Below are positions 33,547-60,558 of a stretch of 64,000 nucleotides of DNA, piece by piece. Below the pieces are notes generated by a model, which did not search any database, was not told the origin of the DNA, and worked only from the letters and a program-made list of their open reading frames with translations. How positions within the stretch are numbered: the first letter of the stretch is position 1; the number at the start of each line of letters is the position of its first letter. The DNA is from Microvenator marinus. Lineage in GTDB: Bacteria; Myxococcota_A; Bradymonadia; Bradymonadales; Bradymonadaceae. Both the position numbers and the translations under genes were made by a program. The stretch covers positions 5,294,001 through 5,358,000 of the forward strand of contig NZ_CP042467.1 of NCBI RefSeq assembly GCF_007993755.1, written 5' to 3'.

Positions 33547-33966
33547 ATGGAAGTACAAACTTGGATCACAGCAGCGCTAGGGGGAGGCATCATCGGTCTC
33601 GCGTCTGCGCTGCTCTTGGCGTTCAACGGACGCATCGCAGGGATATCGGGTATCACTGGCGGCTTAATCTCTCCCACTCGTGGCGAGGTGAGTTGGCGAC
33701 TGATGTTCCTAATTGGGCTCCTCGGTGGAGGCTTCTTGATGGCACTTTTGATGCCGGAAGCGTTCACGGCGAGTCCTCGGTCTACCTTCTGGGTTGTCGC
33801 AGCAGGCCTCTTGGTCGGCTTCGGCACTCGTCTTGGTAGCGGTTGTACCAGCGGTCACGGCGTGTGCGGCTTGAGTCGATTCTCACCTCGCTCGCTCGTC
33901 GCGACTTTGACATTCATCGGGGCAGGTATGGTTACCGTGGCCCTCTTTAACGGATTTGGAGGTTAA
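33547..33966 (+). CDS. YeeE/YedE-family sulfur transporter, N-terminal half protein (second copy)
   Basis: 139 residues, about four helices, with signature GSGCTSGHGVCGLSRFSPRS near residue 97. Similar to the half protein at 2767 (GNGCTSGHGVCG), sharing the GGGIIG...FNGRIAGISGI opening. It should form a channel with the next gene, two bases on. Together they may import thiosulfate or another sulfane-sulfur source for the hydrolase downstream. GGAG precedes the ATG. Confidence 0.9.
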   Translation: MEVQTWITAALGGGIIGLASALLLAFNGRIAGISGITGGLISPTRGEVSWRLMFLIGLLGGGFLMALLMPEAFTASPRSTFWVVAAGLLVGFGTRLGSGCTSGHGVCGLSRFSPRSLVATLTFIGAGMVTVALFNGFGG

Positions 33967-35394: not shown

Positions 35395-35422
35395 AAGCAC
35401 CTTTGGGAAACCAAAGGTGCTT
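35395..35422 (+). terminator. Strong hairpin terminator
   Basis: AAGCACCTTTGG, loop GAAA, CCAAAGGTGCTT: a perfect 12-base stem with a stable GNRA-type loop, 35 bases after the persulfide dioxygenase gene. A T-tract downstream is lacking, so it may be a processing/stability hairpin or a terminator with weak U tail. Confidence 0.7.
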
Positions 35423-35479
35423 GTCGCGTTCTTGGGAAGGAAGTACCCTCCGCGCTACCAATTAGAGCGCGGAGGTTCC

Positions 35480-36343
35480 ATGGAGAAGGGATGGGTTGGA
35501 GCGGGCGAATACGAGCTTAGCGTTGAGGACGCGAAGATCATTTGCCGCAATTCGAGCGGAAAGGTTCTAAAATCAGTGCCGAGCAAGGTCAAAAGCACGT
35601 CTGAGTATGAAGAGCTTCAGCTCGCGCTTTTATGGCTCAACGATCACGAAAGAGAGTGCCGAGAGCATGTTGAGTCTTGGATGCTACGCTCGCTGCCTGT
35701 TCCGCGAGCGCTGGCCGAAAGTGTTTGGAAGGACTCCGCATGGCGAACATTCTTGGAGTTCGCGGTTGTGTCTCCTCTCAAAGACGCTGATGACGAAGAC
35801 TTCGGCTTCTTCCTGGGCGCGTCGGAGAAGGGGATCGGAATCGTAAATCTTGACGGTGAGACCCGATGGCTCGACTCAGCCGCTCTCACTATTCCGCATC
35901 CAGTTCTTATCCCTGAGCTCGATGATTTCAGAGAGCTCGCAATGGAGCTCGGCTACGAACAAAAGCTCCAACAGCTATTCAGAGAGACGTTCACCAAGCC
36001 AGAAAAGCTCGACCCCAAAGCCAGTGCGTTGAGCACGTTTGCAGAAGGGAAATTCGAACAGCTCAATTACGCCTTGGGGCGTTGCAGAACGCTCGGCTAC
36101 CCGGTTCGCGGCGGCTTCGCATCGTGCAAAGTTATGGAGGGCGGAAAGCTCGCTGAAGCCCGTTATTGGATCGGGTCGGAGTACCCCGAGTACGAGACCT
36201 ACACGGGGGACCTGATCTGGGTGGACGAGCGGGAGCGTTCGATACCCATCGTAGAGGTTGGACCGGTTGCGTATTCCGAGGGGATGCGAATGGCGAGTGC
36301 GATCTTCGCGGGTCGTGCAAAAGAAGAAGAAAAACAAGACTAG
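35480..36343 (+). CDS. DUF4132-like protein
   Basis: 287 residues from the ATG at 35480, after GGAGG; a longer frame reaches into the terminator and is rejected. The C-half reads like the C-terminal part of DUF4132 proteins: FVVSPL-type strand AVVSPLKDADDEDFGFFLG, GETRWLDSAALTIPHPVLIP, LQQLFRETFTKPEKL and the closing GPVAYSEGMRMASAIFAG. Typical DUF4132 proteins are far larger, so this is a short version. The function of the family is unknown. Ten bases before the 1582-residue gene, probably co-transcribed. Family assignment is from memory of sequence character. Confidence 0.6.
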   Translation: MEKGWVGAGEYELSVEDAKIICRNSSGKVLKSVPSKVKSTSEYEELQLALLWLNDHERECREHVESWMLRSLPVPRALAESVWKDSAWRTFLEFAVVSPLKDADDEDFGFFLGASEKGIGIVNLDGETRWLDSAALTIPHPVLIPELDDFRELAMELGYEQKLQQLFRETFTKPEKLDPKASALSTFAEGKFEQLNYALGRCRTLGYPVRGGFASCKVMEGGKLAEARYWIGSEYPEYETYTGDLIWVDERERSIPIVEVGPVAYSEGMRMASAIFAGRAKEEEKQD

Positions 36344-36353
36344 GAGGTTACCC

Positions 36354-39300
36354 ATGCACGCGAACGAATGGCTAGTGGCAGGGGGATACCTGCTCAAAGA
36401 ATGGACGTCTAAGAAAGATGTCGTCGACCAGATCGATGCCCGAGTCTTTACCCATCCAGCGATGCCCGATCGAGAAATCGTCAGGTTGACTCCGAGTGCG
36501 CTCGCGGATGGCGAAGACAGCGCGATGGATATTCTGGGGTTTAAGTTTGAGGAGTCGAATGAGGGTGTGGCGTTTCGTAAGCGCCAGGCTCTTGGGTTCC
36601 CGGACTATGTGTTGGTGAACCACCCAGAAGACGCGAAGTTGGCGCTGAACACGGCTCGGAGTCTCAAGAAGCTTATGCGCGGCGCGAAGTCTAAACCGGG
36701 CAACGCCAAAGATATGGTTCTCGGTTTGACCAAGTCCATTGAGACCTCGAGCCCTCATTTCCTCCCGTCAATGCACGAGGAAATCGCACGCCTATTCCTC
36801 GAGGCTGGCAATACCACTTACGCGAGCACGTTCTTTGGGAAAGCCCGCGAGGCGGAGCAAATGTATGCCCTGCCTGTGGACGAGGAGCGACGCCGTGACG
36901 CCTTTGTGGAGTTCGCTCTTAACGGTGCGCTTACAAATAAAGTCATGACCCAATATGCAAAAGTTCTCACGGAGGAACACGGTCCAGATCAAGCCTACGA
37001 GTATTTCTTCGACCTCTGTGTGCGCCGCACTCTTGGCGGCACACCGATAAGCGCACAACTCGTGACTGATTTGAGGAAACTCGCTCGCGGTGCAAAGCGC
37101 AATGCAGCAGAAGAAGACGAACGATTCATAAACGAAGTTTGGGAATCGCCGGCTTTGGCCTTCTCGGCCACGAAGTTTTGGGAGACCTATGCGAAGACCT
37201 TCAAAGGCTTGTTGAAGACCCTTCCGGCGCTCAGTGGCCGTCTTCTCAATATGTGGCCGCGTCCTTCTTCGGGTGGCGATGGCTTCAAGGAGTTTTGGCT
37301 CGATTTCTTGAGAGATCTAGGGCTCTGGAAGGCGCTGACCGACCCCAAAGAGAAGGTCGCCGACGCTGACGCTCCAGAGGAGTCTGCTGCAGCGTGGATA
37401 GAAAAGCTCATCACTCGGTCCATGAAAACCGGCTGGGGAGGGTGGAATACGCCTGATTTGCCGGACAATGCGTTTGAGTTGCTTCGTCAAATGGCGGATA
37501 GACTCAAGGCTGATGACATCCAGTTTAAGATTCAGCGTTCGTACGCCGGGGGTGATGCTGACTTCCTAGATCTTGCGCTCGAATTGGGGGTGCCCGTCGA
37601 CGCAGAAAATTCCGGTTTTCGACTGAACATCTGGATGAACGCTCCGGCGGACTCCAAGGAAAGGTTGAGGGATCTCAAGTTTATTGCCGAAGACTCGCGC
37701 TTCGACCAGATCATGGATCACGCGGTGTCGGAGGTCTTTTCGAACGTTGAGTTCCAAACGCTTGCCGCTGGAAAGCTCGGGCTCGAGAAAGCGCGCCGGA
37801 AATGGCTTGAGGAGCGTGTGGAGCAGATGGAGCAGGGCTACTTCCCCGAGTGGATGACGCATGCGGCCACGCTCTCCAACATCCCAGCGGCAACGTTTGG
37901 TGAGTTTCCGGTTGTGTATGAGCGGTTGACGAAGCTCGACCCCATCCCCTCGTTTAAGAGAAGCCTCTCGCTTGGTTTGATGGATGAGCTCGTTTGGCGG
38001 GAATTTGAAGCGGCGAAGCTCGAACTCTCAACTAAGAATAAGGACGAGCTCTATCAGCATTTTTCCTTCCCTTACGCCTACGTCTACAATCGCAAGCAGA
38101 TCATCGTGGTTGGACCCAATGGCAGGGAGCTCAAGCATGATTTTGCGTTCAAGTGGAGCCGGAACTACTCGGTGATTCGCACCTTGAAGTTCGCTAAAGG
38201 GCAGCTTTTGGTCGCCTATTACGACGACTCATGGAACACCAAGGCGTATTGGAGCGGAAACCCCAAGGACACTTGGGAACTGAATTCGTGGTTGTCCACC
38301 ACGACGGGCGCCATTTTGGAAGACGGTCGGGTATTCGAAGGCTTCCGCGCTTTTGGTCCGCCAGATAAGGAGCTTCCGGGCTCAGGCGTTTGGTTCTCAG
38401 ACGGTACAACATTCTGGAGAGCCGAGGGGTGGGGCGAGTCCGCGAAGGTTATTGAGATCGACCCCGTTACGGGTCGTGCTGGGCGTAACTCACTCCCGAA
38501 ATTCTTTGAGGATTTGGCCGATTCTGAGCATAAGATTGAGGCAAGCTATTCATCGCTCTATCCGATTCCCGCTGGTTTCAAGTCGTTGTTAACGAATGAG
38601 CCGTTCTGGGGCGTTTGTGTGCGTTCAAAACTTCCCGAGGGACGTTGGGTTTGCACGCTTTACAGTGGTGAGTCTTTTGACCGCCACGATATCTATGGCC
38701 GAGTGCAATGGCCAGGGGCTGAACAATCCGTTCTGGTCAACCCAAGTTTCCAGGTGCTTGATGAGGACGGCGAGCTGGTCTCAGAGTCCCATATCAGCCT
38801 TCAAACACCATTTTGGCATGCCCTTGAGTGGCGCGACGCTCAGGCCTCAAAGACGCTGCGTAAGTTGGACGATGCTGTGCTCTACCAGTGGCTGGTTATC
38901 GCGTTTTTGGACGAACCAGGTGCAAACGCTCAGATTCTCTCAGACCCAACAAAGGAGGCCTTAGGCACTTTCCTCGACTCGATTGGAGCAAGCACCGACG
39001 CCAAGCTCCTGAAGCAGGTCAAGACGGCAGTCGCCAAGGGTGAGGATGCAAAAGCTGGGGTCTTGCAGAAGGCGATACGTGAATCCCTGGATGGGTGTGA
39101 CGAAAGCCTCGCAGCCATCCTGGCAATGCGCTTTCAGGGGCTGAGAACTCAGATTGAAAACTTGTTCAATCTGCTCACGATGGCCGACCCTGAGAACGCC
39201 GTGGCACAGATTTCGGCCAAGGCGATCATCAGCAATGTTGCCCTCCTGAGGCAAACCTATTACTCCTACTACCATGATAAATTAGACTTCTCAGTCTTAC

Positions 39301-41102
39301 TCGACCTCTTGGTTCACGCGACTGAAGGTCGGGATGCGGATTTTAGTGATTTGCACTACGTCACGGCTGAATTCTTCGCTGCCCTGCTCGAACCTGGAAG
39401 TCTCTACTGGCTTGGTACGCGAAGTGATGAGAGAGAGGCATTTGCGTTGCTCTTGGAGGCCTTGTCAGACCGACTTCCGTTCCATGAGTACGAGCATCGT
39501 CGCGTCTCCTATGTGGACTTGGACGCGCAAGAGCATCTTCTGTCAACCTTGAAAATCGAAGACGAGTATTTCGTGGTTCAATACCGAGATCTCAAGTCTG
39601 GGCCAGCCCTGATACTCAAATTGGGTGGAGAGCCTTATGGATATGTGATCTATCAATGGTCGAAGAAGCCACTTGGCCCCTTGGAGATTGCGGCGGAGTT
39701 TTCGCGAGATTGGAACTTTCCAAGGCCAGAAGAGGTTGAGCGTTGGGCTGATTCGCTGCGCGGCGGGCACGAGGTTGAAATTGACACCGAGGCCCTTGAA
39801 GGGGCTGCCCAGACTGCTGGCGTAAGCTATCCCGAGTTCGCGCTCTTGTGGGCCGGAGCACCAAATTGGCAAGACTGGAACAAGAACTTCCTTCCCAAAG
39901 AGTTGCGCGAATCACTCAAACTCAAGGTGGCTGAGGCCGACAAGGCGCGCCAAATACTGCGAGATATCATCGGTTTCCACCTAATCCATGTGTTTCACGA
40001 ATCCGTGAGTGTGGACACAGATGTGTATACTCAAAAGGGAATGGAAGTGCTGGCCGAACATTTGGCCGACCTCTACCAGTCCTCAGATGCTCTTGATGGG
40101 GTAGTCCTGGAGGCCCTGGAGTCGCTGGGTTGGTATGGGGCGCGCGACACATTCTCAAGGCTTCTCGAGCCTGGCGGAGCGTTCGAAACAAAGCCTTCAT
40201 TCTCGTTCAAGAAGCAGGAAGACAAGACCCTCTACTTTGAACAAGTGGGCCCAACGTTCTCTGATATCGAAGGAGCGTTGAGGTTGGCCTTTGGGCTCGC
40301 TTTGGCCCTCCCAGGGGACCATGAGGCTCGAGGCCCAATCAAGGCCGCGCTCAAGCGCCTTCCCGATATTGTTAGGGATCCAAATTTTGTGGTCTCTGTC
40401 GGTAATCTCTACGGCTACGAATACGAGAAAAAGGCAATCGATGAGCGCTTGTCTTTGTTAGGGATGAAGGCAGACAAGCCTTTGGATGAAGGTGTAACTC
40501 TGGCCGTACTCGGCTCATGGGGTGTGGAGTTTTTCTTCCGTCCGGCTAGTTATCTTGCCGGGGAGAAGAATGTGCACTTAGAACGTTTGTCTGCGCCGAA
40601 CTTCAGGCCGATCGACTACATCGTGTCTTCGGACTTCGAGCTCTTCTTGGACTCGCTCGATTCCGGCTTCGATTACGACCCGCACAATCCGTCTCTAAGC
40701 GCACCAGATGTGCTCAAAGACGTCTCAAAAACGCTGAAGCTCAGCGATGACGCGGCGCTACTATTCCTGCAGACCCTGGCACTTGTCGATTTGAAGTCGG
40801 CGACCGTCAAGAGAATCAACGGATGGTCCACCAAGGAATACAAGGCCGCGTGCGATGAACTTACAAAGGCCAAACTCTTGGTGGAGGCAAAGCGCGCAAG
40901 GGCAGGGCGCTCCCACTTCCTCGATGGTCCGTGGATGGCGCTCAAATCACCGCATCATCCTATGGAGACGTGGAAAGCGAGCCTCTATGGCTGCGACCCC
41001 TATGGAAATGCTCCCTATGGATTCGTGCCCACTATCCCGATGCCGGAATTCTTCAGGCGCACATGGGAGCGATATAAATCGGGGGATAAGCCGGGATTCT
41101 AG
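36354..41102 (+). CDS. 1582-residue protein of unknown function, paired with DUF4132-like protein
   Basis: Start ATG 36354 follows TAGGAGG; a frame to 36258 overlaps the previous gene. No signal peptide or membrane helix, so cytoplasmic. N-terminal block MHANEWLVAGGYLLKEW and LTPSALADGEDSAMDILGF, a helical region with LFLEAGNTTYASTFFGKARE and CVRRTLGGTPISAQ (like proteins of unknown function in actinobacteria), a strand-rich middle (YVYNRKQIIVVGPNGR...; FSDGTTFWRAEG) suggestive of a beta-propeller-like region (about 580-800), and a C-terminus with SHFLDGPWMALKSPHHPMETWK. No catalytic motif recognised. Convergent with the next gene at a two-base gap. Similar giants elsewhere occur near MoxR ATPases (from memory, low confidence), but none is here. 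Confidence 0.7.
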   Translation: MHANEWLVAGGYLLKEWTSKKDVVDQIDARVFTHPAMPDREIVRLTPSALADGEDSAMDILGFKFEESNEGVAFRKRQALGFPDYVLVNHPEDAKLALNTARSLKKLMRGAKSKPGNAKDMVLGLTKSIETSSPHFLPSMHEEIARLFLEAGNTTYASTFFGKAREAEQMYALPVDEERRRDAFVEFALNGALTNKVMTQYAKVLTEEHGPDQAYEYFFDLCVRRTLGGTPISAQLVTDLRKLARGAKRNAAEEDERFINEVWESPALAFSATKFWETYAKTFKGLLKTLPALSGRLLNMWPRPSSGGDGFKEFWLDFLRDLGLWKALTDPKEKVADADAPEESAAAWIEKLITRSMKTGWGGWNTPDLPDNAFELLRQMADRLKADDIQFKIQRSYAGGDADFLDLALELGVPVDAENSGFRLNIWMNAPADSKERLRDLKFIAEDSRFDQIMDHAVSEVFSNVEFQTLAAGKLGLEKARRKWLEERVEQMEQGYFPEWMTHAATLSNIPAATFGEFPVVYERLTKLDPIPSFKRSLSLGLMDELVWREFEAAKLELSTKNKDELYQHFSFPYAYVYNRKQIIVVGPNGRELKHDFAFKWSRNYSVIRTLKFAKGQLLVAYYDDSWNTKAYWSGNPKDTWELNSWLSTTTGAILEDGRVFEGFRAFGPPDKELPGSGVWFSDGTTFWRAEGWGESAKVIEIDPVTGRAGRNSLPKFFEDLADSEHKIEASYSSLYPIPAGFKSLLTNEPFWGVCVRSKLPEGRWVCTLYSGESFDRHDIYGRVQWPGAEQSVLVNPSFQVLDEDGELVSESHISLQTPFWHALEWRDAQASKTLRKLDDAVLYQWLVIAFLDEPGANAQILSDPTKEALGTFLDSIGASTDAKLLKQVKTAVAKGEDAKAGVLQKAIRESLDGCDESLAAILAMRFQGLRTQIENLFNLLTMADPENAVAQISAKAIISNVALLRQTYYSYYHDKLDFSVLLDLLVHATEGRDADFSDLHYVTAEFFAALLEPGSLYWLGTRSDEREAFALLLEALSDRLPFHEYEHRRVSYVDLDAQEHLLSTLKIEDEYFVVQYRDLKSGPALILKLGGEPYGYVIYQWSKKPLGPLEIAAEFSRDWNFPRPEEVERWADSLRGGHEVEIDTEALEGAAQTAGVSYPEFALLWAGAPNWQDWNKNFLPKELRESLKLKVAEADKARQILRDIIGFHLIHVFHESVSVDTDVYTQKGMEVLAEHLADLYQSSDALDGVVLEALESLGWYGARDTFSRLLEPGGAFETKPSFSFKKQEDKTLYFEQVGPTFSDIEGALRLAFGLALALPGDHEARGPIKAALKRLPDIVRDPNFVVSVGNLYGYEYEKKAIDERLSLLGMKADKPLDEGVTLAVLGSWGVEFFFRPASYLAGEKNVHLERLSAPNFRPIDYIVSSDFELFLDSLDSGFDYDPHNPSLSAPDVLKDVSKTLKLSDDAALLFLQTLALVDLKSATVKRINGWSTKEYKAACDELTKAKLLVEAKRARAGRSHFLDGPWMALKSPHHPMETWKASLYGCDPYGNAPYGFVPTIPMPEFFRRTWERYKSGDKPGF

Positions 41103-41104
41103 GC

Positions 41105-43027
41105 TTATTCGGGGAGCGTCACGCCGCCTGCAAATGCATAGCTGATGTACTCGTCCATACCGTGAACCACGATGCCAAAGGTATCCGTGGAGCTCGCGGT
41201 ATGGACGCCTGCAGCGATATTGTCGAGCATGGCGTATTCCCAGCCAAGAGTCCCGCCCGTGGCCTGGAACGACGACTGAGGAATTGTGTTTCCATCGAGC
41301 GTGACGGTGGTGCCAGGTCGCTTCATGATCGTGACGTAGTTTCGACGATAGTTGCCGGGGACTAGGAACACGTAAGAATCTCTAAACTGCTGAACAGCTG
41401 GTGGCACCATAAACGCCGGATCGCCGTCGTCCGACGTGCTGATCGAGCCGCCAATCATATACTGGCCGAGCATCACAGGCTGGTCTGCCGTGATCTCAAA
41501 GGCGTTCGGTCCGTAGATCTGCCGGATATCGCCTCGATTCATCGTGAAGGTTGTCAATCCGTTCACAGCAGGACTCAAGGTCACCGTTGTATTGTCGCGT
41601 GCAGCCACGATTTTATAGAGCGTGAAATCGTTGATTCCACGGTTTCTGTAGGGCACAGCCACATAGTTTTGACCCCACGTTTCCACCGGGAAGAGCTGTT
41701 GCTCAACGTGGTCGCCGGCTGCAAGGCTGTCTCGACACGTCAGAGGGGCTCCAATGCCGTCGTATCCGCAAATGCCGGAGCAACACTGGTCATTTGTCGC
41801 GCAGCCCGCATCGAGCTGTCCACAGCCCGATGGAGGGTTCTGACGCACTGGCTGACTCGGTATGTTGACGAGCCCGGCCCCAGTATACACTGCAATTGGG
41901 TTGTTGGACGTAATCGTCACACCATCCACGTTGACGGGTTGGAAGATACTCCCGCCGCCGAGGTGAAGCACCGTGTTGGCTCCAAGCGCGAAGGAGCCGG
42001 TACCGTTGGCGGGCACTGAGCCTGCGTTTCCGCCACTAAGGCTCACTGGAGAAGAAACCTGCACGACCGTTCCGGCCTGAGTCGACACGATATCGATATA
42101 ACCAGGAGGCCAGCCCACGACCACGTATTCACGGCCGAGTGCGTTTGTCGGAAGGAGAAGCGAGGCGTCGCTCGTTTCGCTACCAATTCCCGGGTTGTTC
42201 AGCGGCGCAAACTGCGTTGCAATCACGGGCCTGTCAGACTGGATGATATAGAAGTTTTGAGAAGTTCCTGCTGCACTCACCATGGGCGAGGTCGGGAAGT
42301 TAAGAACGGCACTGGTGAGGGGTTGAACCGTCTGTGAGTTGATGCCGGAGTTAAGTCCGCCTGGGCTCGTGACTTGAACCGTCACTGGTTGGTCGCCCGG
42401 ATTGGAGACGACGACGGTGTGAGGTAGGGTTCTTAGGCCTGAGCGTTGGTCGTGGCGCATGGTGATGTACTCGCAGCCCACGTTCGACTTTTCGTCGAGA
42501 AGGCCCGCGCAGCCCGCCACGCACTCGCCGGCCTCGCACGTACGTTCCGCGGGGCATGATTCGGCCTGACCCCAGGTCATGCCGTCGGCCTGGCAATTCT
42601 GGTACTCGGTCTGGCTTATGCAGCGCGATGCTCCAGGCTCGCAGGAGTTCGAGTCCATGATGCAGTTTCCAAGGAAGCATGTCTCACCGTTGGCCGCGCA
42701 GTTCTGCTGGGCCGTGAATTGGCCGTTGACGCAGAGTTCCACGGTCTCCTGGTTGCAGCGCCTTTCGGTTCCTGTGCAATCGTTGGTCAGGGGCATGTCC
42801 GGTTGAGACTGGTCGGGCATGTTGTTCGGGTCCGGAATTGTCATATCCGGCGTATCACCGTTAGCATCCGGAGTGTTCGGATCTGGGGTACCCCGAGGAA
42901 TACACTGACCGGTGATCGGATTGAACGATTCGCCGGGCTGGCAGTTTTCATCGGGGCCAGCTGTGGTGGTATCGTCGCTGCAAGATAGCGCGCCGAGAAA
43001 AATCAAGAAAATTAGGGCTTTATGCAT
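41105..43027 (-). CDS. IgGFc-binding-like cell-surface lipoprotein
   Basis: 640 residues from the ATG at 43027 (GGAG nine bases ahead); a frame to 43045 adds six residues. Signal MHKALIFLIFLGALSC with lipobox. A Cys-rich N-terminal segment (CQPGESFNPITGQC, CTGTERRCNQETVELC, CEPGASRCISQTEYQNC) is followed by an IgGFc_binding domain (about 185-620): GLRTLPHTVVVSNPGD, YIIQSDRPVIATQFAP, LLLPTNALGREYVVVGW and a repeated layout of 'ITSNNPIAVYTG' strands. The domain recurs in myxobacterial exported proteins. Function is probably adhesion or surface structure, not proven. Confidence 0.85.
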   Translation of the reverse strand: MHKALIFLIFLGALSCSDDTTTAGPDENCQPGESFNPITGQCIPRGTPDPNTPDANGDTPDMTIPDPNNMPDQSQPDMPLTNDCTGTERRCNQETVELCVNGQFTAQQNCAANGETCFLGNCIMDSNSCEPGASRCISQTEYQNCQADGMTWGQAESCPAERTCEAGECVAGCAGLLDEKSNVGCEYITMRHDQRSGLRTLPHTVVVSNPGDQPVTVQVTSPGGLNSGINSQTVQPLTSAVLNFPTSPMVSAAGTSQNFYIIQSDRPVIATQFAPLNNPGIGSETSDASLLLPTNALGREYVVVGWPPGYIDIVSTQAGTVVQVSSPVSLSGGNAGSVPANGTGSFALGANTVLHLGGGSIFQPVNVDGVTITSNNPIAVYTGAGLVNIPSQPVRQNPPSGCGQLDAGCATNDQCCSGICGYDGIGAPLTCRDSLAAGDHVEQQLFPVETWGQNYVAVPYRNRGINDFTLYKIVAARDNTTVTLSPAVNGLTTFTMNRGDIRQIYGPNAFEITADQPVMLGQYMIGGSISTSDDGDPAFMVPPAVQQFRDSYVFLVPGNYRRNYVTIMKRPGTTVTLDGNTIPQSSFQATGGTLGWEYAMLDNIAAGVHTASSTDTFGIVVHGMDEYISYAFAGGVTLPE

Positions 43028-43113
43028 GGTGCCGGGCTCCATCAATTAGAGAATCCCGGCACCTTACACTATTCTTGGTTTAGCAACCAAATGCTTTCAG
43101 ATACGCCCGTATT

Positions 43114-45393
43114 CTAGGGGGCTGGACATGTCGCCGTGGTATCTGGAGCGATACCAAAATCACTCACGTCATCTCGAGGGTGGGCGGTGAAATACTCCTC
43201 AGGCGTCCAGGCTGAAATTCCATCGAAAGGCGTGAAATCGCAGCGACGGTGTGTAACTTCTGCCCATGGTGTGCCGCTAGGTTCGACCGCGGTTTGACCG
43301 TAAGCATCAAAAATGACGTCGTCGGTCGTGAAACTGCCAGAGGCGTCCAGGTCACGATAAACCATCAGACGGTCATCACCATTGAACGAGATTGACCCGA
43401 TTTTAAGGTCACACGTTCCATCGGGGAAAAGAGTGACGTTAACGCTTGAATTGCACGAGGTCGCGACGTCCCCTGGCAGGAGCGTTAGGCTAGGCATGTC
43501 AATGTTCGAACTACAACCAGTCGCATCGTTGGCCGCCAAACAGAGCTGAAACTCGTCGAGATTTACCGGAATCTCACCGCAATTGAAGAACTCCACACCT
43601 TTGTTGTTGCTTGAGCCCTCGATGTACTCCGAAATAATCAAGCAGGGCTGCCGAACGAGAACATCCACAGTGATCGATTCGTTGGCTTCGTTCGTGACTG
43701 TAAGGACTGCATCTGTTTCGGTAGCACCACTGAGCACATCCACTTCGACGAACGTATCACCCGTCAAAAAGATTGGCGTGTCGTCGTCTACCAAAAGCCC
43801 ACCGGTGATGGTGACCGAAAGAAGTCCGTCGACAGCGGCTGGCGTCGGGAATTCAATTCTCACAGTGGCAATGGTATCTGGCTCCAAGACCACAGGGTCA
43901 GGTGTGATGGTGGCAAATGGTACGATGCTAGCAGGAGCCGCGTCGATATCCGCTGATTCGGCAATTGCAGGTGCCCCGTCGGTTACCCCGCAATAGACCC
44001 AGGTTGCTCCGCCGTCTCCACTGAACGAATAGACGTAGGCAGAATCGCCGTTCGGGAAGTCGAGATCAGCCTGATACTCAAAACCGCCCCCAAGTGGGTT
44101 CGGATTCCATTCAGCGTCAACGCACACGTCAATCTCATCGGACGTAAATGGTGAGATTGCGTTTCCATAACACGCACGTGCCATCACACCGCGCAGTCCG
44201 TCGGCTTCAGCTACGGCTGGGTTCGCGTTCAGTCGACCGTAGATCGTGGCGAGTGAGCTCGCTTGATTGATGGATTTCGGGAACTGGATCCAGCACTCGG
44301 TTATGGTGACGTTGGAGACACAGACACCGTCTTGGAGATGGAAGTTCGCTGGGAGCTCCCATGCACCATCCACACATGTCTCTTGCTCAGCGTTGCCGTC
44401 ACATGTGATGGCTTGTTGCGCGCCATCTACACAGACGTCCGGGTCGACACATTGGCCAATCCACTGACCGCCCGTACATGTTTCGTCACGAGAACCACGG
44501 TTGTTAAGGCCACATGAAACAGTTTGAGTGGCTCCTTCAACACAGATGTCTGGGTCTGCGCAATCTCCGGTGTCTGCCCACTGGCCGGTCTCACAGGTCT
44601 GTGCCTGAGTTCCGTTGCCGTTGAGCCCACAGGCTACATCTTGGGTTGCCCCGTTGGTGCACACGTCAGTGTCGGTGCAGTCTCCGGTATCCGCCCACTG
44701 GCCGGTATCACAGGTCTGCGCCTGGGTACCGTTGCCGTTGAGCCCGCATGCTACATCTTGGGTTGCCCCGTTGGTGCAAACGTCTGCGTCAGTGCAATCT
44801 CCAGTGTCAGCCCATTGGCCGTTTTCACAGGTTTGTGCCTGGGTACCGTTGCCGTTGAGCCCGCATGCTACATCTTGGGTTTCAGCGTTGGTGCAGACGT
44901 CAGGATCAACGCAATCGCCGTCGTTGGTCCAGGTGCCGGCGGTACAGACTTGAGCTTGGGTTCCTTGCGCGTTGAGTCCACACGCCAAATCACGGGTGTC
45001 GTTTTCTTCGCACTCACCGGCTTCTTCGCATTGGCCATCAGCTGCCCACTGTCCCTCTACGCAAATCAGGGCCTGCGAGCCGTTGATGCCGCACGACTCC
45101 TCACCGGTTTCGCCGTCTGTGCATTCATCCGGGTCGTCGCAGTCGCCGTCGTTGACGAATTCACCGTTGATGCAGAGTAGGTTTTGGGACCCCCGACCAT
45201 TGAGACCGCAGGTGGTGGAGTCTGTATCCCCGTCGGTGCACTCACCGTTATTGGCGTCCGGCTCAGCGTCTGGTCCGGCGTCTGCTTCGTTATTGGGGTC
45301 TGTGCCCGTGTCAGGCGTGTCTTTGGGTTCGGACGGGTCCGTTCCGCAGGCACTTACCAAGGCAATAAGGAAGATCCAAAAAATGTTTTTCAT
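43114..45393 (-). CDS. Cys-repeat surface lipoprotein with lamin-tail-like domain
   Basis: 759 residues, lipobox signal MKNIFWIFLIALVSAC. Residues 45-400 hold about nine cysteine-rich repeats of about 40 residues (CTNGATQDVACGLNGNGTQA-QTC-GQWADTGDC in the best copies). After this a region with CWIQFPKSINQASSLATIYG, a beta-sandwich-like part, and a lamin tail domain (about 625-750): LIISEYIEGSSNNKGVEFFN and CLAANDATGCSSNIDM-SLTLLPGD. The layout matches exported proteins of delta- and myxobacteria, with the lamin tail domain often near nuclease or surface modules. Role inferred as adhesive or structural. Confidence 0.82.
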   Translation of the reverse strand: MKNIFWIFLIALVSACGTDPSEPKDTPDTGTDPNNEADAGPDAEPDANNGECTDGDTDSTTCGLNGRGSQNLLCINGEFVNDGDCDDPDECTDGETGEESCGINGSQALICVEGQWAADGQCEEAGECEENDTRDLACGLNAQGTQAQVCTAGTWTNDGDCVDPDVCTNAETQDVACGLNGNGTQAQTCENGQWADTGDCTDADVCTNGATQDVACGLNGNGTQAQTCDTGQWADTGDCTDTDVCTNGATQDVACGLNGNGTQAQTCETGQWADTGDCADPDICVEGATQTVSCGLNNRGSRDETCTGGQWIGQCVDPDVCVDGAQQAITCDGNAEQETCVDGAWELPANFHLQDGVCVSNVTITECWIQFPKSINQASSLATIYGRLNANPAVAEADGLRGVMARACYGNAISPFTSDEIDVCVDAEWNPNPLGGGFEYQADLDFPNGDSAYVYSFSGDGGATWVYCGVTDGAPAIAESADIDAAPASIVPFATITPDPVVLEPDTIATVRIEFPTPAAVDGLLSVTITGGLLVDDDTPIFLTGDTFVEVDVLSGATETDAVLTVTNEANESITVDVLVRQPCLIISEYIEGSSNNKGVEFFNCGEIPVNLDEFQLCLAANDATGCSSNIDMPSLTLLPGDVATSCNSSVNVTLFPDGTCDLKIGSISFNGDDRLMVYRDLDASGSFTTDDVIFDAYGQTAVEPSGTPWAEVTHRRCDFTPFDGISAWTPEEYFTAHPRDDVSDFGIAPDTTATCPAP
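44520..44950 (-). repeat. Tandem Cys-repeat coding region
   Basis: Within the preceding gene, the GATQDVACGLNGNGTQAQTC unit occurs three times nearly identically (about 120 bases apart: 44590-44880), flanked by diverged copies. The near-identity of adjacent copies at DNA level points to recent duplication or gene conversion; copy number may vary between strains. Confidence 0.8.
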
Positions 45394-53280: not shown

Positions 53281-53340
53281 GTCGATTTTGTGAAGAGTTG
53301 ATCCCGCTGCAAGTGCAGCACGTTTACCCCTGTGAGTCTC

Positions 53341-56300
53341 ATGTCCGCTGAAAACACATCGAATCGTCCCCCTTTGGCAGTAGTTGGCGTCTCGGCCCTT
53401 TTCCCTGGCGCAACAACGACCGCTGGTTTTTGGAGAAATATCCTGGAAGCCCAGGACCTGATCTCCGATGTCCCAGAATCTCATTGGCTCATCGAAGACT
53501 ATTACGATCCAGATCCAAGTGCTCCTGATAAAACCTATGCAAAACGCGGTGGATTCCTTCCAAAGGTCGACTTCGATGCCATGGGTTGGGGTGTTCCTCC
53601 GAGCATTATCCCCGCAACCGATACATCGCAGCTGCTGGCTTTGATCGTGGCTGAGCAAGTGCTCAAAGATGCGCTTCGAAGCCAGTTTGAAACGGCGAGC
53701 CGTGAAAATATCTCGGTGATTCTGGGGGTGACCTCGGCTCAGGAACTTCTGGCTACGATGGTCAGCCGACTTCAGCGCCCGGTGTGGGTGAAGGCCCTGC
53801 GAGAGCAAGGTCTGAGCGAAGATGAAGTTCAAGCCGCTGCAGACAAGATCGGCGATCATTACCAGCCATGGCAGGAGAGCAGCTTCCCCGGACTTCTGGG
53901 CAACGTGGTTGCCGGCCGTATTGCGAACCGCCTCGACCTCGGTGGTACGAACTGCGTGACTGACGCGGCATGTGCTTCAACGTTCTCGGCTATCGCGATG
54001 GCCGCCAATGAGCTCTACCTCGGTGACTCCGATATCGTGATCGCGGGTGGCGTAGACACGTTGAATGACATCTTTATGTACATGTGTTTCTCGAAAACCC
54101 CGGCGTTGAGTGCGACAGGCGATTGCCGCCCATTCAGCGACCAGGCGGACGGAACCATGCTGGGCGAAGGTCTCGGCATGGTGGCGTTGAAGCGCCTGGC
54201 CGATGCAGAGCGCGACGGAGACAAGATCTATGCGGTGCTTAGGGGTGTGGGTTCGAGCTCGGACGGCCGCTCAAAGAGCGTTTATGCGCCGGTCTCAGAA
54301 GGTCAGGCCAATGCATTGATTCGTGCGTACGACCGCGCCGGGTATAGCTCAAACACTGTGGAGATTGTCGAGGCGCACGGAACCGGAACTAAGGCCGGTG
54401 ATGCTGCTGAATTCAACGGTCTCAAGATCGCGTTTGAGAAAGAAGACAGCACCACCAAGCAGTGGTGTGCGCTCGGATCTGTGAAGTCGCAAATCGGCCA
54501 CACAAAAGCTGCGGCAGGAGCTGCGGGCTTGTTCAAGGTCGTGATGGCGCTTCAGTCGAAGACTCTCGCGCCGACGATCAAAGTCGAGCGTCCAAACCCT
54601 AAGCTCGCGCTCGAAGAGTCGCCTTTTTATATCAACACTGAGTCGCGTCCTTGGGTTCGTCCATCTGACCACCCACGACGCGGGAGTGTGAGTAGCTTTG
54701 GTTTTGGTGGGTCGAACTTCCACCTTACTTTGGAAGAGTATACGGGTGAGCTGAAAGCTGAGCGGCCACGCAGCTTGTCGTGGGAGTTGATTACGCTCTC
54801 GGCGGCTGATGGCCACGCCGTTGCCAAACTCGCCCGCGATTTCGCGGCGCGTGCAACCGAAGGCATGCTCGCCCGACTTTCGTATGATTCTCACGTGCTC
54901 TTTGAGGCCAGTGCACCGGCAAGATTGGCAATTGTGGCTACCTCTGAGGCCGACCTCAAGAACAAGCTTGAGCGCGCTGCTCAGATGATCGAGAAGAATC
55001 CGAGCACCCCATTTCAGATGCCAGACGGCACCATCTTTGGCACGAATCGTACCGAGGGTGACGTAGGTTTTGTGTTCCCGGGGCAGGGGTCGCAATACGT
55101 GAATATGGGTGCGCACGTTGCCATGGCGTTCGATACGGCCATTTCGGCATGGGATAACGCCGCGGTTGATTTTGGGACGGGCAAGCGGCTCGACCAGGTG
55201 GTCTTCCCAATTCCTAAGTTCACCGACGACGCGCGCGCAGGGGACGAGGAAGTCTTGAGGGCGACCGAGTGGGCTCAGCCTGCGATCGGAACGTGCTCCG
55301 TGTCGATGTTCCGCATGATGCAGGCGCTCCGAGTCAATCCGAGCGCGTTTGCTGGACATAGCTTTGGTGAGGTCACCGCACTCTTTGCCGCTGGCGCACT
55401 CTCCGAGGGCGATATGTTGGCGGTTGCTCGAAAGCGCGGTGAGTTGATGGCAGCAGCGTCAGAGCTCCCTGGAGCGATGTCCGCCGTGGCGGCGACGCTC
55501 GATGTGGTGGAGTCTGTGCTAGCCGAAGTTGGGTCGTCAGACGTGGTCATGGCGAACCACAACGCTCCAGACCAAGTGGTGATTTCGGGAACGGTAGAGG
55601 CGGTCAGAAAGGCAGAAGAAGCCTTTGCGAAACGAAGTGTGACCGTCAAGAGTCTTCCTGTCTCAACCGCATTCCACTCGCCCGTGGTTGCGGCAAGCAG
55701 CGAGCCGTTTGGTGAGTTCCTGGCAGGGATTGAGTTCAACGCACCTTCCACGAAAGTTTGGTGTGGTGAGACATCTTCAGCCTATGGCTCAGATGTTGAG
55801 CAGATTCGCGAGCGACTCGCGCGTCAAATCGCAAACCCCGTGAGGTTTGTGGACACCATCAACGATATGTACGCAAACGGCGTGCGAGTCTTTGTGGAAG
55901 TGGGCCCTGGGTCGGTCTTGACGAAGCTCGTCAAAGCTATCCTCCACGGAAAGGACGACTTTGTTGCCATTTCACTGGATCGCCGCGGAAAGCATGGGCT
56001 TGAGTTCTTCCTCCGAGGACTGGGTGCTATCTCGGTCGCCGGGGTGCAGCTCGATTTCGAGGCGATTTGGGCCGGATACGGTGTTCCTGAGGATATCTCG
56101 GCACGTCCTAAGCCAAAGCTCTCGGTTGCAATCGACGGTTCGAACCACGGCAAGAAGTACCCACCCGTGGGTGGCGCGGCCGCTCTTCCTAAGCCGAATC
56201 CTCCACGTCAGCCCGAAGTTATCGAGCGCGAGGTCATCAAAGAAGTGCCAGTGGAAGTCATCAAAGAAGTGCCTGTCGAGGTACCTGTCTATGTGAACTC

Positions 56301-59300
56301 CGGGGCTCCAGCGGGTCAACAGGCGTCTCATAACGCGCCGGCTTCGTCCGAGTGGATCGCCACGTGGCAAGAGGCTCATAAGCAAAACGCAATGAGCCTG
56401 ATGGCGTTCCAGCATGCGATGACTCAGTCTCAGACGGCCTTTATTCAGGCGATTGAAACTTCGTACAAGAGCCTCGGAAATGCTCACGGGCAGGCAGCAC
56501 AGCCAGCTCACACTCAGGGATTTGCCCAGAAGCAGCTGACTCAGCAGGATTTCGCGCCACAGAGTTTTGCGCCACAGAGTTTTGCGCCACAGAGTTTTGC
56601 GCCACAGAGTGTTGCGCAGCCTTCGCCGGCTCCGGCGCAACAGCCTACTCAGACGAATGGTGCCTTTAAGATTCCGAACGCGCCCGTCGCAGCAACGCCA
56701 GCACCGGCACCAACGCCCGCTCCACAGACCCAGGCAACGCCTGTATCTGCGGGTAACCTGGAGGCGTCGATGCTCAAAGTCGTGTCGGCCAAGACTGGCT
56801 ACCCGATCGAGATGCTCGACCTCAACATGGACCTCGAGCGCGACCTTGGCGTGGATTCTATCAAACGCGTCGAGATTATGGCCGCACTCCAAGACCTTGA
56901 GCCCGGCCTCCCAAGCGTGGATGCCGGACAACTCGCTGGTCTGAGGACTCTGGGAGAGATTGTGGAGCATGTACACGCGGGCTCCGTCCGCGTGGGACAG
57001 ACTGCGGTACCTGCAGCACCATCCATGCCGGCTCAAGCCCCCGCATCAACAACTACCTCAACACCCGGTGTGAACCTGCACGCACTCATGCTCAAGGCAG
57101 TCTCTGATAAAACGGGCTATCCTGAAGAAATGCTTGAGTTGAGCATGGACCTTGAGGGTGACCTCGGCATCGACTCCATCAAGCGCGTTGAGATTCTGGC
57201 TGCGGTTCAAGAACAAGCTCCTGGTATGCCAGATGTAGATACGAACAAGATGGGCTCACTCAGAACTCTTGGCGAAATCGTCGAGTACATGCAGGGACTT
57301 ATGCCTGCTTCCTTGACCCCGGTTTCAGCACACAGCAATGCAACTCCTGCTGCTGCGCCTGCCTCAGCACCCGGCGTGGACCTTCACGCACTCATGCTCA
57401 AGGCGGTCTCTGATAAGACGGGCTATCCTGAAGAAATGTTGGAATTGAGCATGGACCTCGAGGGCGACCTCGGGATCGATTCCATCAAGCGCGTTGAGAT
57501 CTTGGCAGCGGTTCAGGAGCAAGCTCCTGGTATGCCAGACGTAGACACCAACAAGATGGGCTCGCTCAGGACCCTCGGTGAAATCGTCGAGTATATGCAG
57601 GGTTTGATGCCAGCTTCTTCTGCCCCTGCACAGGTACCAGTCACTTCAACTCCTGCCGCTCTGCCTGCCCAAACTCCAGGCGTTGACTTGCACGCACTTA
57701 TGCTTGCAGCGGTCGCCGAAAAAACAGGCTACCCTGCAGAGATGCTGGAGCTGAGTATGGACCTTGAGGGTGACCTCGGGATCGATTCCATCAAGCGCGT
57801 TGAGATTCTGGCTGCGGTTCAGGAGCAAGCTCCTGGTATGCCAGACGTAGACACCAACAAGATGGGCTCACTCAGAACCCTTGGTCAGATCGTTGAGTAC
57901 ATGCAGGGCCTTATGCCTGCTTCTTCTACTCCTGCTCCGGCACAAGCCAGTGCCCCGGTAGCTAACGCGTCCGTCGCGACCCCAGGCGTAGACCTGCACG
58001 CACTCATGCTTGCGGCAGTCGCTGAGAAGACGGGCTATCCAGCAGAAATGTTGGAGTTGAGCATGGACCTTGAGGGTGACCTCGGGATCGACTCCATCAA
58101 GCGCGTTGAGATTCTGGCTGCGGTTCAGGAGCAAGCTCCTGGCATGCCAGACGTAGATACGAACAAGATGGGCTCACTTAGAACCCTTGGGCAAATCGTC
58201 GAGTACATGCAGGGCTTGATGCCAGGTGCGAGCGCGGTTTCAGCGCCCGTGGCACAGGCTGCGGCACCATCAACACCGGCTGTCTCAAAGGCAGCGCCGG
58301 CAAATCTCGGGCGATTCACGCTGAAGATGGTGGAGCGCGAGCCTGCTGGCCTTGCCCAGGCACACCTCTTTGGTACCACGGTCTACGTCACCAAAGATCA
58401 ACTCGGCGTTGCTGAGCATCTTGTGAGCGGACTCAAAACCCTCGGTGTGGATGCGCTCGTCACAGAATCTGTGCCTGCCAATGCCAAAGCGGCAGTCTTC
58501 TTAGGTGGTATCAATCCGATTGAGACCGCGGAGGAAGGTGTTCAGATCGAGAAGAGTGCTTTTGAAGCGGCAAAGGCGCTCGCGCCAAACGTCAAAGACG
58601 GCGGCCTCTTTGTCACCGTTCAGGACACAGGCGGGGCGTTTGGCACTACCGACTTTGACCCCGTTCGCGCCTATGTGGGCGGCCTTCCCGGGTTGGTGAA
58701 AACTGCCGCTCAGGAGTGGACCGAAGCGTCACTTAAGGCCATCGATATCCAGACTCAGGGACTTAGTCCTGAAGCCATCGCCCTTGCTCTCGTGACGGAG
58801 CTCGTCAGAGGTGGAGCGGACATTGAAGTGGGCCTGGTTGGCTCGAAGCGCCTCGTTCCTCAGAGCGTGGCAGCAGACGTGCCGGCGGGAAGTGTGCGTA
58901 TCAATGCTGGCGATGTGGTCGTTGTCTCAGGAGGTGCGCGCGGCGTTACGGCTTCGTGCGTCATCGAGTGGGCATCGCGTAGCAAGGCCAGCTTTGTACT
59001 GCTTGGTAGAACACCTCTTCAGGACGAGCCAGCCACCTATGCTTCAGCCTCCACGGACGCCGACCTGAAGCGCGTGCTTCTAGCCGAAGCCAAGGCTAGT
59101 GGCGAGGCCATTACACCCGCTCAACTTAGCCGGAAAGTAAGTCGAGTTCTCGCAAACCGTGAGGTTAACGAGACTATCGCGGCTATCGAGAAGGCTGGCG
59201 GAAGGGCCAAGTACGTGGCGGCTGATGTTCAAGATGCCGACGCATTGAACACTGCTCTCGCTCAAGTTCGAAATGAGTGGGGCCCAATCAAGGCTGTGGT

Positions 59301-60558
59301 TCACGGTGCCGGCGTGCTCGCCGATAAATACATCGCCGACATGAGCCAGGACGACTTCGACTTCGTCTTCAACACCAAGGTAGGTGGATGGCGCGCGCTG
59401 ATGAGTGCGCTCAAGACCGACCCGGTTGAAGTCGTTTGTATGTTCTCATCGGTGGCTGGACGTTGCGGAAACGCCGGCCAGGCCAACTACTCCATGGCGA
59501 ACGAAGTCCTCAACAAGATCGCTCAAGCAGAGCAGGGTGTGAATCCGAACATGCTTGTGAAATCACTCGGTTGGGGCCCATGGGAAGGTGGAATGGTCAG
59601 CCCAGAACTCAAAGCGCATTTTGAGCGAATGGGAGTTCCGATGATTCCGCTCGAAGTTGGGGCCAAGATGTTTGCCGACGAGATGCAATCGACGACCGCA
59701 GATGTGGAGTTGGTGCTCGGTGGCGAGCCGCGTTCGGAGGCCTTGATAGGAGGAAAAGAACGCCCTTTTAAGTTAGAGGTTAACATAAATCATGTCACGC
59801 ATGGATTCTTGCGAGGTCACAGTATTGCTGGAGCTGCCGTTGTCCCAGTAGTATTGGTTTTGGAGTGGTTTAGCCGATTGGCTCGTGCCGCCCGACCAGA
59901 CCTTCACCTCAGCGTGATTAAGAACCTCAAAGTCCTCAAAGGCATCCGCCTCCAGGACTTCGAAGGTGCGGGCGACCGCTTTGTGTTGACCTCTTGGCCA
60001 GTCGCTAACGGCAGCGACCTTACACTTCAGATGGAACTACACTCCGCATCCGGTGCCTTGCACTACCGTGCGATGGCTGAGCTGAGCACATCACCAGTGC
60101 TCATGCCTAAGAACACGCTTGCGACCCCTTCGCTAAACACATGGGGAAGCGCTCGGGTCTACGGCGACGTGCTCTTTCACACGGATGATTTCCAGGTGAT
60201 CAAGGAGCTTGAAGGCGTCTCGGCACAAGGCATTGCTGGCGCGCTCAAAGGAGTCCACGAGGCCCAATGGAATTGGGATGCGTGGCAAACCGATGTCGCA
60301 GCCTTTGACGGTGGCCTTCAGATGCTTCTCCTTTGGGCTCGCGAGGGCATGGGCGGCGCGGTGCTTCCGATGGGAATCGGTGAGCTTCGCATGACCGGTC
60401 AGGCACCTTCTGAGGGCGAGATTCGGTGCGTTGCGCAATGTAAGGCTTCGTCGAGTTCGAGCGCAGTGGCGGACCTTGTGTTCACCGACGCTAAAGGTGC
60501 AACCTTCGCCGAAATGAAACACGTAGAATTGGTCAAACGCCCTGACGTGAAGTCCTAA
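53341..60558 (+). CDS. pfaA: PUFA synthase PfaA (KS-AT-5xACP-KR-DH-like)
   Basis: 2405 residues from the ATG at 53341; a GTG at 53332 adds three residues. Ketosynthase (15-475): Cys211 in DAACAST, EAHGTGT and KSQIGHTKAAAG. Acyltransferase (580-880): GFVFPGQGSQYVNMGA and Ser674 in GHSFGE. Linker (940-1130) with PVEVIKEVPVEV and SFAPQ repeats. Five ACPs with DSIKR serines at about 1173, 1279, 1381, 1483 and 1585. Ketoreductase (1850-2060): VVVVSGGARGVTASC, VHGAGVLADKYIADMS, SSVAGRCGNAGQANYSMANE. C-terminal hotdog-like dehydratase (2140-2400) with HGFLRGHSIAGAAVVP. It iteratively builds omega-3 or omega-6 polyunsaturated chains with PfaC and PfaD. ATG chosen by position; no clear ribosome site. 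Confidence 0.97.
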   Translation: MSAENTSNRPPLAVVGVSALFPGATTTAGFWRNILEAQDLISDVPESHWLIEDYYDPDPSAPDKTYAKRGGFLPKVDFDAMGWGVPPSIIPATDTSQLLALIVAEQVLKDALRSQFETASRENISVILGVTSAQELLATMVSRLQRPVWVKALREQGLSEDEVQAAADKIGDHYQPWQESSFPGLLGNVVAGRIANRLDLGGTNCVTDAACASTFSAIAMAANELYLGDSDIVIAGGVDTLNDIFMYMCFSKTPALSATGDCRPFSDQADGTMLGEGLGMVALKRLADAERDGDKIYAVLRGVGSSSDGRSKSVYAPVSEGQANALIRAYDRAGYSSNTVEIVEAHGTGTKAGDAAEFNGLKIAFEKEDSTTKQWCALGSVKSQIGHTKAAAGAAGLFKVVMALQSKTLAPTIKVERPNPKLALEESPFYINTESRPWVRPSDHPRRGSVSSFGFGGSNFHLTLEEYTGELKAERPRSLSWELITLSAADGHAVAKLARDFAARATEGMLARLSYDSHVLFEASAPARLAIVATSEADLKNKLERAAQMIEKNPSTPFQMPDGTIFGTNRTEGDVGFVFPGQGSQYVNMGAHVAMAFDTAISAWDNAAVDFGTGKRLDQVVFPIPKFTDDARAGDEEVLRATEWAQPAIGTCSVSMFRMMQALRVNPSAFAGHSFGEVTALFAAGALSEGDMLAVARKRGELMAAASELPGAMSAVAATLDVVESVLAEVGSSDVVMANHNAPDQVVISGTVEAVRKAEEAFAKRSVTVKSLPVSTAFHSPVVAASSEPFGEFLAGIEFNAPSTKVWCGETSSAYGSDVEQIRERLARQIANPVRFVDTINDMYANGVRVFVEVGPGSVLTKLVKAILHGKDDFVAISLDRRGKHGLEFFLRGLGAISVAGVQLDFEAIWAGYGVPEDISARPKPKLSVAIDGSNHGKKYPPVGGAAALPKPNPPRQPEVIEREVIKEVPVEVIKEVPVEVPVYVNSGAPAGQQASHNAPASSEWIATWQEAHKQNAMSLMAFQHAMTQSQTAFIQAIETSYKSLGNAHGQAAQPAHTQGFAQKQLTQQDFAPQSFAPQSFAPQSFAPQSVAQPSPAPAQQPTQTNGAFKIPNAPVAATPAPAPTPAPQTQATPVSAGNLEASMLKVVSAKTGYPIEMLDLNMDLERDLGVDSIKRVEIMAALQDLEPGLPSVDAGQLAGLRTLGEIVEHVHAGSVRVGQTAVPAAPSMPAQAPASTTTSTPGVNLHALMLKAVSDKTGYPEEMLELSMDLEGDLGIDSIKRVEILAAVQEQAPGMPDVDTNKMGSLRTLGEIVEYMQGLMPASLTPVSAHSNATPAAAPASAPGVDLHALMLKAVSDKTGYPEEMLELSMDLEGDLGIDSIKRVEILAAVQEQAPGMPDVDTNKMGSLRTLGEIVEYMQGLMPASSAPAQVPVTSTPAALPAQTPGVDLHALMLAAVAEKTGYPAEMLELSMDLEGDLGIDSIKRVEILAAVQEQAPGMPDVDTNKMGSLRTLGQIVEYMQGLMPASSTPAPAQASAPVANASVATPGVDLHALMLAAVAEKTGYPAEMLELSMDLEGDLGIDSIKRVEILAAVQEQAPGMPDVDTNKMGSLRTLGQIVEYMQGLMPGASAVSAPVAQAAAPSTPAVSKAAPANLGRFTLKMVEREPAGLAQAHLFGTTVYVTKDQLGVAEHLVSGLKTLGVDALVTESVPANAKAAVFLGGINPIETAEEGVQIEKSAFEAAKALAPNVKDGGLFVTVQDTGGAFGTTDFDPVRAYVGGLPGLVKTAAQEWTEASLKAIDIQTQGLSPEAIALALVTELVRGGADIEVGLVGSKRLVPQSVAADVPAGSVRINAGDVVVVSGGARGVTASCVIEWASRSKASFVLLGRTPLQDEPATYASASTDADLKRVLLAEAKASGEAITPAQLSRKVSRVLANREVNETIAAIEKAGGRAKYVAADVQDADALNTALAQVRNEWGPIKAVVHGAGVLADKYIADMSQDDFDFVFNTKVGGWRALMSALKTDPVEVVCMFSSVAGRCGNAGQANYSMANEVLNKIAQAEQGVNPNMLVKSLGWGPWEGGMVSPELKAHFERMGVPMIPLEVGAKMFADEMQSTTADVELVLGGEPRSEALIGGKERPFKLEVNINHVTHGFLRGHSIAGAAVVPVVLVLEWFSRLARAARPDLHLSVIKNLKVLKGIRLQDFEGAGDRFVLTSWPVANGSDLTLQMELHSASGALHYRAMAELSTSPVLMPKNTLATPSLNTWGSARVYGDVLFHTDDFQVIKELEGVSAQGIAGALKGVHEAQWNWDAWQTDVAAFDGGLQMLLLWAREGMGGAVLPMGIGELRMTGQAPSEGEIRCVAQCKASSSSSAVADLVFTDAKGATFAEMKHVELVKRPDVKS
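56551..56615 (+). repeat. 15-bp repeat coding SFAPQ in pfaA linker
   Basis: The unit GCGCCACAGAGTTTT repeats about four times almost exactly, coding (S)FAPQ, between AT and the first ACP. A low-complexity tether likely to vary in copy number. Confidence 0.9.
57067..58228 (+). repeat. 306-bp tandem repeat coding ACP2-ACP5 of pfaA
   Basis: Four copies with an exact 306-base (102-residue) period measured at the codon for Leu in VDLHALML (57076, 57382, 57688, 57994). Copies 2-3 share AVSDKTGYPEEM and copies 4-5 share AVAEKTGYPAEM. ACP1 at 56755-56985 is more diverged. The uniform spacing shows amplification after duplication, with pairs homogenised. Confidence 0.95.

Follow-up and report, generated by a model that had tools for sequence, protein, structure and literature searches.

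Two adjacent genes of Microvenator marinus, encoding a short DUF4132 protein and a giant partner, were found on the evidence of sequence and gene order to be one half of a five-gene system whose arrangement is sister to that of the E. coli yeh operon, with the MoxR ATPase core of the system encoded far away in the same genome. The window, i.e. the whole stretch of 64,000 nucleotides that was analysed, corresponded to positions 5,294,001–5,358,000 of the single-contig 5.85-Mb genome. The pair and the elements preceding it were located as follows (window coordinates).

35395..35422, + strand: perfect 12-bp inverted repeat between a metallo-beta-lactamase-fold gene and the pair
35447..35475, + strand: 10-bp hairpin whose 3′ arm holds the GGAGG of the DUF4132 gene (−23.2 kcal/mol, z −2.5)
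35480..36343, + strand: short DUF4132 gene, 287 aa, intact open reading frame with a PF13569 match
36354..41102, + strand: giant partner gene, 1582 aa, predicted scaffold, intact open reading frame

The two genes were separated by a 10-base gap and each was preceded by a GGAGG (35471–35475 for the DUF4132 gene and 36343–36347 for the giant gene), as had been read in a preliminary description of this DNA. The isolation of the pair proposed there was also borne out: upstream lay a sulphur-related cluster with a Sulf_transp gene at 33547 and the metallo-beta-lactamase-fold gene extending to 35359, and downstream a convergent lipoprotein-like gene with an IgGFc_binding match (PF17517) ended at 41105. 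The terminator hairpin described upstream of the pair was real as a stem, but it was absent from the list of the terminator scan and, since it lacks a T tract, is not a canonical intrinsic terminator. The hairpin at 35447–35475 is a possible translational gate for the DUF4132 gene; no counterpart was found 5′ of the pair in the two nearest relatives. A recent foreign origin of the pair was rejected on composition, its GC content of 53–56% being similar to that of the surroundings.

Elsewhere in the window, two minus-strand lipoprotein-like genes (43114–45393 and 41105–43045) were found to encode TPDxxx-type linkers, the first of them together with a tandem repeat of ~40 residues (CTNxxTQDVACGLNGNGTQAQTC), and at 53332–60558 lay a large gene for a PfaA-like polyunsaturated fatty acid synthase, in which several acyl carrier repeats are nearly identical.

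The 287-aa protein matched all 179 positions (1–179) of PF13569 (DUF4132) with an E-value of 2.8e-22 and 80 bits against a gathering threshold of 27. By profile comparison the entire protein aligned with the last ~290 residues of E. coli YehI (hhalign, 99.7%, 1e-26), in agreement with the earlier reading that, of the usual long DUF4132 proteins, only the C-terminal portion is present here. A second stand-alone DUF4132 gene, encoding a 358-aa protein with a YehI-like C-terminal part, was observed at ~5.70 Mb of the same genome (L059:7316-10133), directly 3′ of a DNA polymerase X-type gene. DUF4132 paralogues were also much expanded in three genomes of the same family, with 12, 22 and 15 matches in G004, G006 and G009, respectively.

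Relatives of the giant protein were confirmed in 452 stretches of GTDB species genomes of Actinomycetota, Planctomycetota and Myxococcota, in 13 of 115 related genomes with the window's own genome excluded, and in ten plasmid records of Streptomyces and Embleya. The annotated gene order on the Streptomyces plasmids was DUF4132, giant, AAA ATPase, DUF5682 and hypothetical, and the last three genes were assigned by Pfam to AAA_5, to DUF5682 plus VWA_CoxE and, weakly, to SWIM. Profiles built from the plasmid genes were used to score gene order at 79 loci, related species included, that were kept for synteny out of the 80 best stretches in a single GTDB scan. Among these best stretches, 73 of the 76 loci that could be tested had a short DUF4132 gene adjoining the giant, 66 of 74 had a MoxR gene downstream of the giant, and 51 of 58, spread over several phyla, had the complete order DUF4132, giant, MoxR ATPase, DUF5682 plus vWA, and SWIM. 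The pair is thus a conserved unit, its adjacency holding where the preliminary description had named a lack of it as grounds for doubt, and the MoxR, vWA and SWIM genes expected near its relatives are indeed their usual neighbours. No further recurring flank partner was detected, with no other gene family present in more than 4 of the 79 loci. Four loci (L070, L079, L082 and L084) carried two to four tandem giants beside a single MoxR core, and in the two that were measured (L079 and L082) the N- and C-terminal regions of the tandem giants were more similar than the middle. At the genome level, DUF5682 was present in 13 of 14 giant-bearing genomes versus 20 of 102 giant-less ones (Fisher p 1.2e-7, with genomes taken as independent and the window's own genome counted).

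In the M. marinus genome itself, two DUF5682 loci were detected. The first core, at 1.262–1.269 Mb (L057), consisted of a MoxR gene (AAA_5 at 128 bits), a DUF5682-vWA gene (DUF5682 at 507 bits and VWA_CoxE at 174.5 bits, the vWA occupying residues 934–1155 of 1163) and a SWIM-type gene, which matched the SWIM-gene profile of the system at 1.3e-171 and had the CxC...CxH motif without a Pfam SWIM match. Its other motifs were a Walker A of GEPGTAKS and a MIDAS of DVSGS. The second core, at 1.895–1.902 Mb (L058), was of the YehL type, and the 358-aa DUF4132 protein could be its partner. In a tree of 62 MoxR proteins, all giant-linked MoxRs fell into one clade (support 100/100, stem 0.72); the 1.26-Mb MoxR was placed inside this clade, beside two genomes of the same family in which the pair adjoins the core, while the 1.90-Mb MoxR grouped with E. 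coli YehL. The window-giant distances correlated with the DUF5682-vWA distances at r 0.92 for the first core and 0.63 for the second, and with the MoxR distances at r 0.71 and 0.61, respectively. Because a core of the giant-linked clade is kept in the same genome, the system in M. marinus is split, not reduced, and the earlier suggestion of a reduced version without an ATPase does not hold. From these sequence relationships, we infer a functional partnership of the pair with the 1.26-Mb core. Directly 5′ of this core, visual inspection showed a toxin-antitoxin pair of HigB/HigA-like type (L057:7872-8482, ~1.262 Mb), and the likely MoxR start codon lies two bases after the HigA stop.

The pair and the first core were 1.78 Mb apart (shorter arc, with the single contig assumed to be circular) and hence not contiguous, and two Actinokineospora loci likewise carried the pair with no adjacent core, as would be expected if the pair were independent of the ATPase and worked alone. 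We nevertheless regard such independence as quite unlikely, given that the giant-clade core is retained, that the window giant keeps the family-wide invariant residues and that DUF5682 was present in six of six other genomes in which the core is not adjacent to the giant, in one of which (L101) the core was 3 kb away.

We then compared the five-gene system with known MoxR systems. The E. coli genes yehI-yehK-yehL-yehM-yehP-yehQ share its components, i.e. DUF4132 (YehI), an AAA_5 MoxR ATPase with GEPGTAKS (YehL), DUF5682 (YehM), VWA_CoxE (YehP) and SWIM (YehQ). In E. coli, however, the DUF4132 component is a single long YehI of 1210 aa with DUF4132 at 954–1138, whereas no such long protein was found here and its place is taken by the 287-aa DUF4132 protein and a giant without YehI homology; YehM and YehP are separate proteins, whereas DUF5682 is fused to vWA here; and the YehL clade is separate from the giant-linked MoxR clade. 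In PMC3893208, YehL is a named MoxR subfamily to which no function is assigned, and MoxR proteins are characterised as chaperone-like remodellers found together with vWA cofactors. RavA-ViaA of E. coli shares the logic of a MoxR protein plus a vWA cofactor but belongs to another MoxR subfamily, with no DUF5682, SWIM, DUF4132 or giant component described (PMC3893208). The MoxR-vWA-beta-propeller ternary systems (PMC7159879, subsystem 4) resemble the present system in a GXXXTAKS P-loop, matched here by GEPGTAKS, and in the combination of a vWA protein with a third protein that has TPR-like and propeller regions. In contrast, the bpMoxR model scored below its cut-off here (24.8 versus 27 bits), the vWA component had no C-terminal propeller and the giant had no Pfam match. 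We accordingly rejected membership in the ternary conflict systems on the bpMoxR profile and the vWA-propeller features, and filed the five-gene system as a variant of YehL-type MoxR systems.

The preliminary description had also considered a role in biological conflict. An anti-phage or other conflict system of the MoxR-vWA kind would agree with the MoxR-vWA engine, with the GXXXTAKS variant, which two MoxR-vWA ternary conflict systems are reported to have, and with the patchy presence among relatives and the tandem giants at some loci. However, none of the components matched PADLOC (PADLOC-DB 2.0.0), no variable effector domain was seen, no phage match was found for the 287-aa DUF4132 protein, and the MoxR tree grouped largely by phylum. 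Moreover, a defence island was not evident among 127 flanking genes of the relatives, which in this uncontrolled scan were mostly ordinary with few defence-model matches. Since there was neither a PADLOC match nor an evident defence island among the 127 genes of the uncontrolled scan, we kept the conflict function as a rival explanation that we judge to be unlikely.

For the giant protein, no match was found by sequence in Pfam, PADLOC or the PDB, and NCBIfam gave a chance-level match only (15 bits versus a cut-off of 129). The highest 19-residue hydropathy average was 1.48, so that no transmembrane helix was evident, consistent with the cytoplasmic location proposed earlier. Its structure was modelled in two parts, residues 1–900 (pLDDT 89, pTM 0.84) and residues 840–1582 (pLDDT 80, pTM 0.78), which were predicted to begin with a small alpha/beta piece at the N-terminus, followed by a helical solenoid and a beta-propeller-like domain, and to continue into a C-terminal half of mixed structure that closes with a winged-helix-like end. 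Three of these regions were placed on the window as follows.

36603..38033, + strand: helical solenoid with a TPR/Get4-like look, giant residues ~84–560 (model and PDB matches)
38052..38786, + strand: beta-propeller-like domain, giant residues ~567–811 (model and PDB match)
40686..40919, + strand: conserved winged-helix-like domain, giant residues ~1445–1522 (RPC62 and MarR-type matches, Z 5–6)

The predicted propeller agrees with the strand-rich middle that had been noted from the sequence; its PDB match was to the propeller of acylaminoacyl peptidase (Z 6.4, 226 residues, rmsd 5.6). All fold matches in the PDB (TPR/Get4-type solenoids, propeller and winged helices) were middling, and the best of them, with Z 10.8 in the helical part, may mean a shared arrangement only. 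At E <0.001, the N-terminal model had a single Foldseek match, to an mTORC1 chain with a TM-score of 0.17, and the C-terminal model had none. The plasmid relatives were excluded from the structure alignments. Conservation was highest at residues 1–300 and 1441–1582 and lowest at 961–1440, directly after a gap-rich stretch at 901–960. Most of the PDB matches fell in the solenoid, propeller and winged helix; residues 961–1440 were scarcely covered by the structure search. We rejected the giant as a known enzyme or a relative of a solved protein, there being nothing by sequence, and as a homologue of YehI or other long DUF4132 proteins, there being none by profile comparison; the clear homology that had been named as an argument against a new system was thus not found. 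Because of the solenoid, propeller and winged-helix matches together with the conservation pattern, the giant is read as a scaffold rather than a recognised enzyme. Its predicted C-terminal winged-helix-like domain may explain the ‘DNA-binding protein’ annotation of the Streptomyces giants.

Taken together, we consider it reasonably probable that DUF4132 and the giant make up the targeting half of a MoxR machine for ATP-driven remodelling, the core of which is supplied in trans. The MoxR ring and its vWA cofactor would be the ATP-driven remodelling engine; the giant would serve as the scaffold, with the solenoid and propeller holding client proteins and the C-terminal winged helix contacting nucleic acid or another protein; and the DUF4132 protein, the sole module of the pair in common with YehI-type systems, would couple the scaffold to the engine. 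Given that the giant stands in place of the first ~920 residues of YehI and that its tandem copies lie beside one core, an argument drawn from four loci, the giant probably sets the target of the machine. Against the explanation in trans, genes so far apart need not be co-expressed, and the same genome has the second, YehL-type core. No experiments on the five-gene system were found in the open-licence literature searched.

Our best guess for the process served by this targeting half is the stress-linked handling of a nucleoprotein complex, with DNA-damage stress as a weak lead. In Deinococcus radiodurans, the DdrO DNA-damage regulon includes the DUF4132 gene DRA0166 and the WGR/MolR-like gene DR2173 (PMC8533742). 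A machine for the DNA-damage response, working on nucleoprotein complexes that are damaged or stalled, would also fit the predicted winged-helix C-terminus of the giant, the SWIM protein and the position of the second DUF4132 gene after the DNA polymerase X gene. However, the Deinococcus proteins need not belong to the short-DUF4132 subtype, and the one LexA-type pattern searched gave fewer matches than expected by chance, with none in the 9 kb before the pair or in the 3 kb after it. We regard this role as somewhat unlikely; it is a special case of the targeting-half explanation, and the likelihoods given here for the rival readings are not exclusive.

The old MolR name would instead make the pair a regulator of molybdate metabolism, E. 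coli molR corresponding to the yeh region. The E. coli gene has been cited as related to DR2173, the WGR protein, but moeA and moeB were unchanged upon induction of these genes (PMC8533742). Since the window neighbours are sulphur-related genes and a lipoprotein-like gene with no molybdenum genes, we consider this function extremely improbable.

More broadly, we tentatively propose, as a possibility we hold with less than even confidence, a five-component MoxR machine with no description in the open-licence literature searched, in which the giant scaffold sets the target, having taken the place of the first ~920 residues of YehI, DUF4132 is the common coupler, and the two halves, encoded far apart in some lineages, still cooperate. 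DUF5682 was not mentioned in the open-licence literature searched, where DUF4132 was. In sum, an unannotated 1582-aa protein and a short DUF4132 protein are linked to a MoxR core in a widespread, almost unstudied five-gene system, which now defines a five-protein complex for reconstitution; the E. coli K-12 yeh genes offer a genetic comparison, and M. marinus provides a natural split version in which the unit may be tested in trans.
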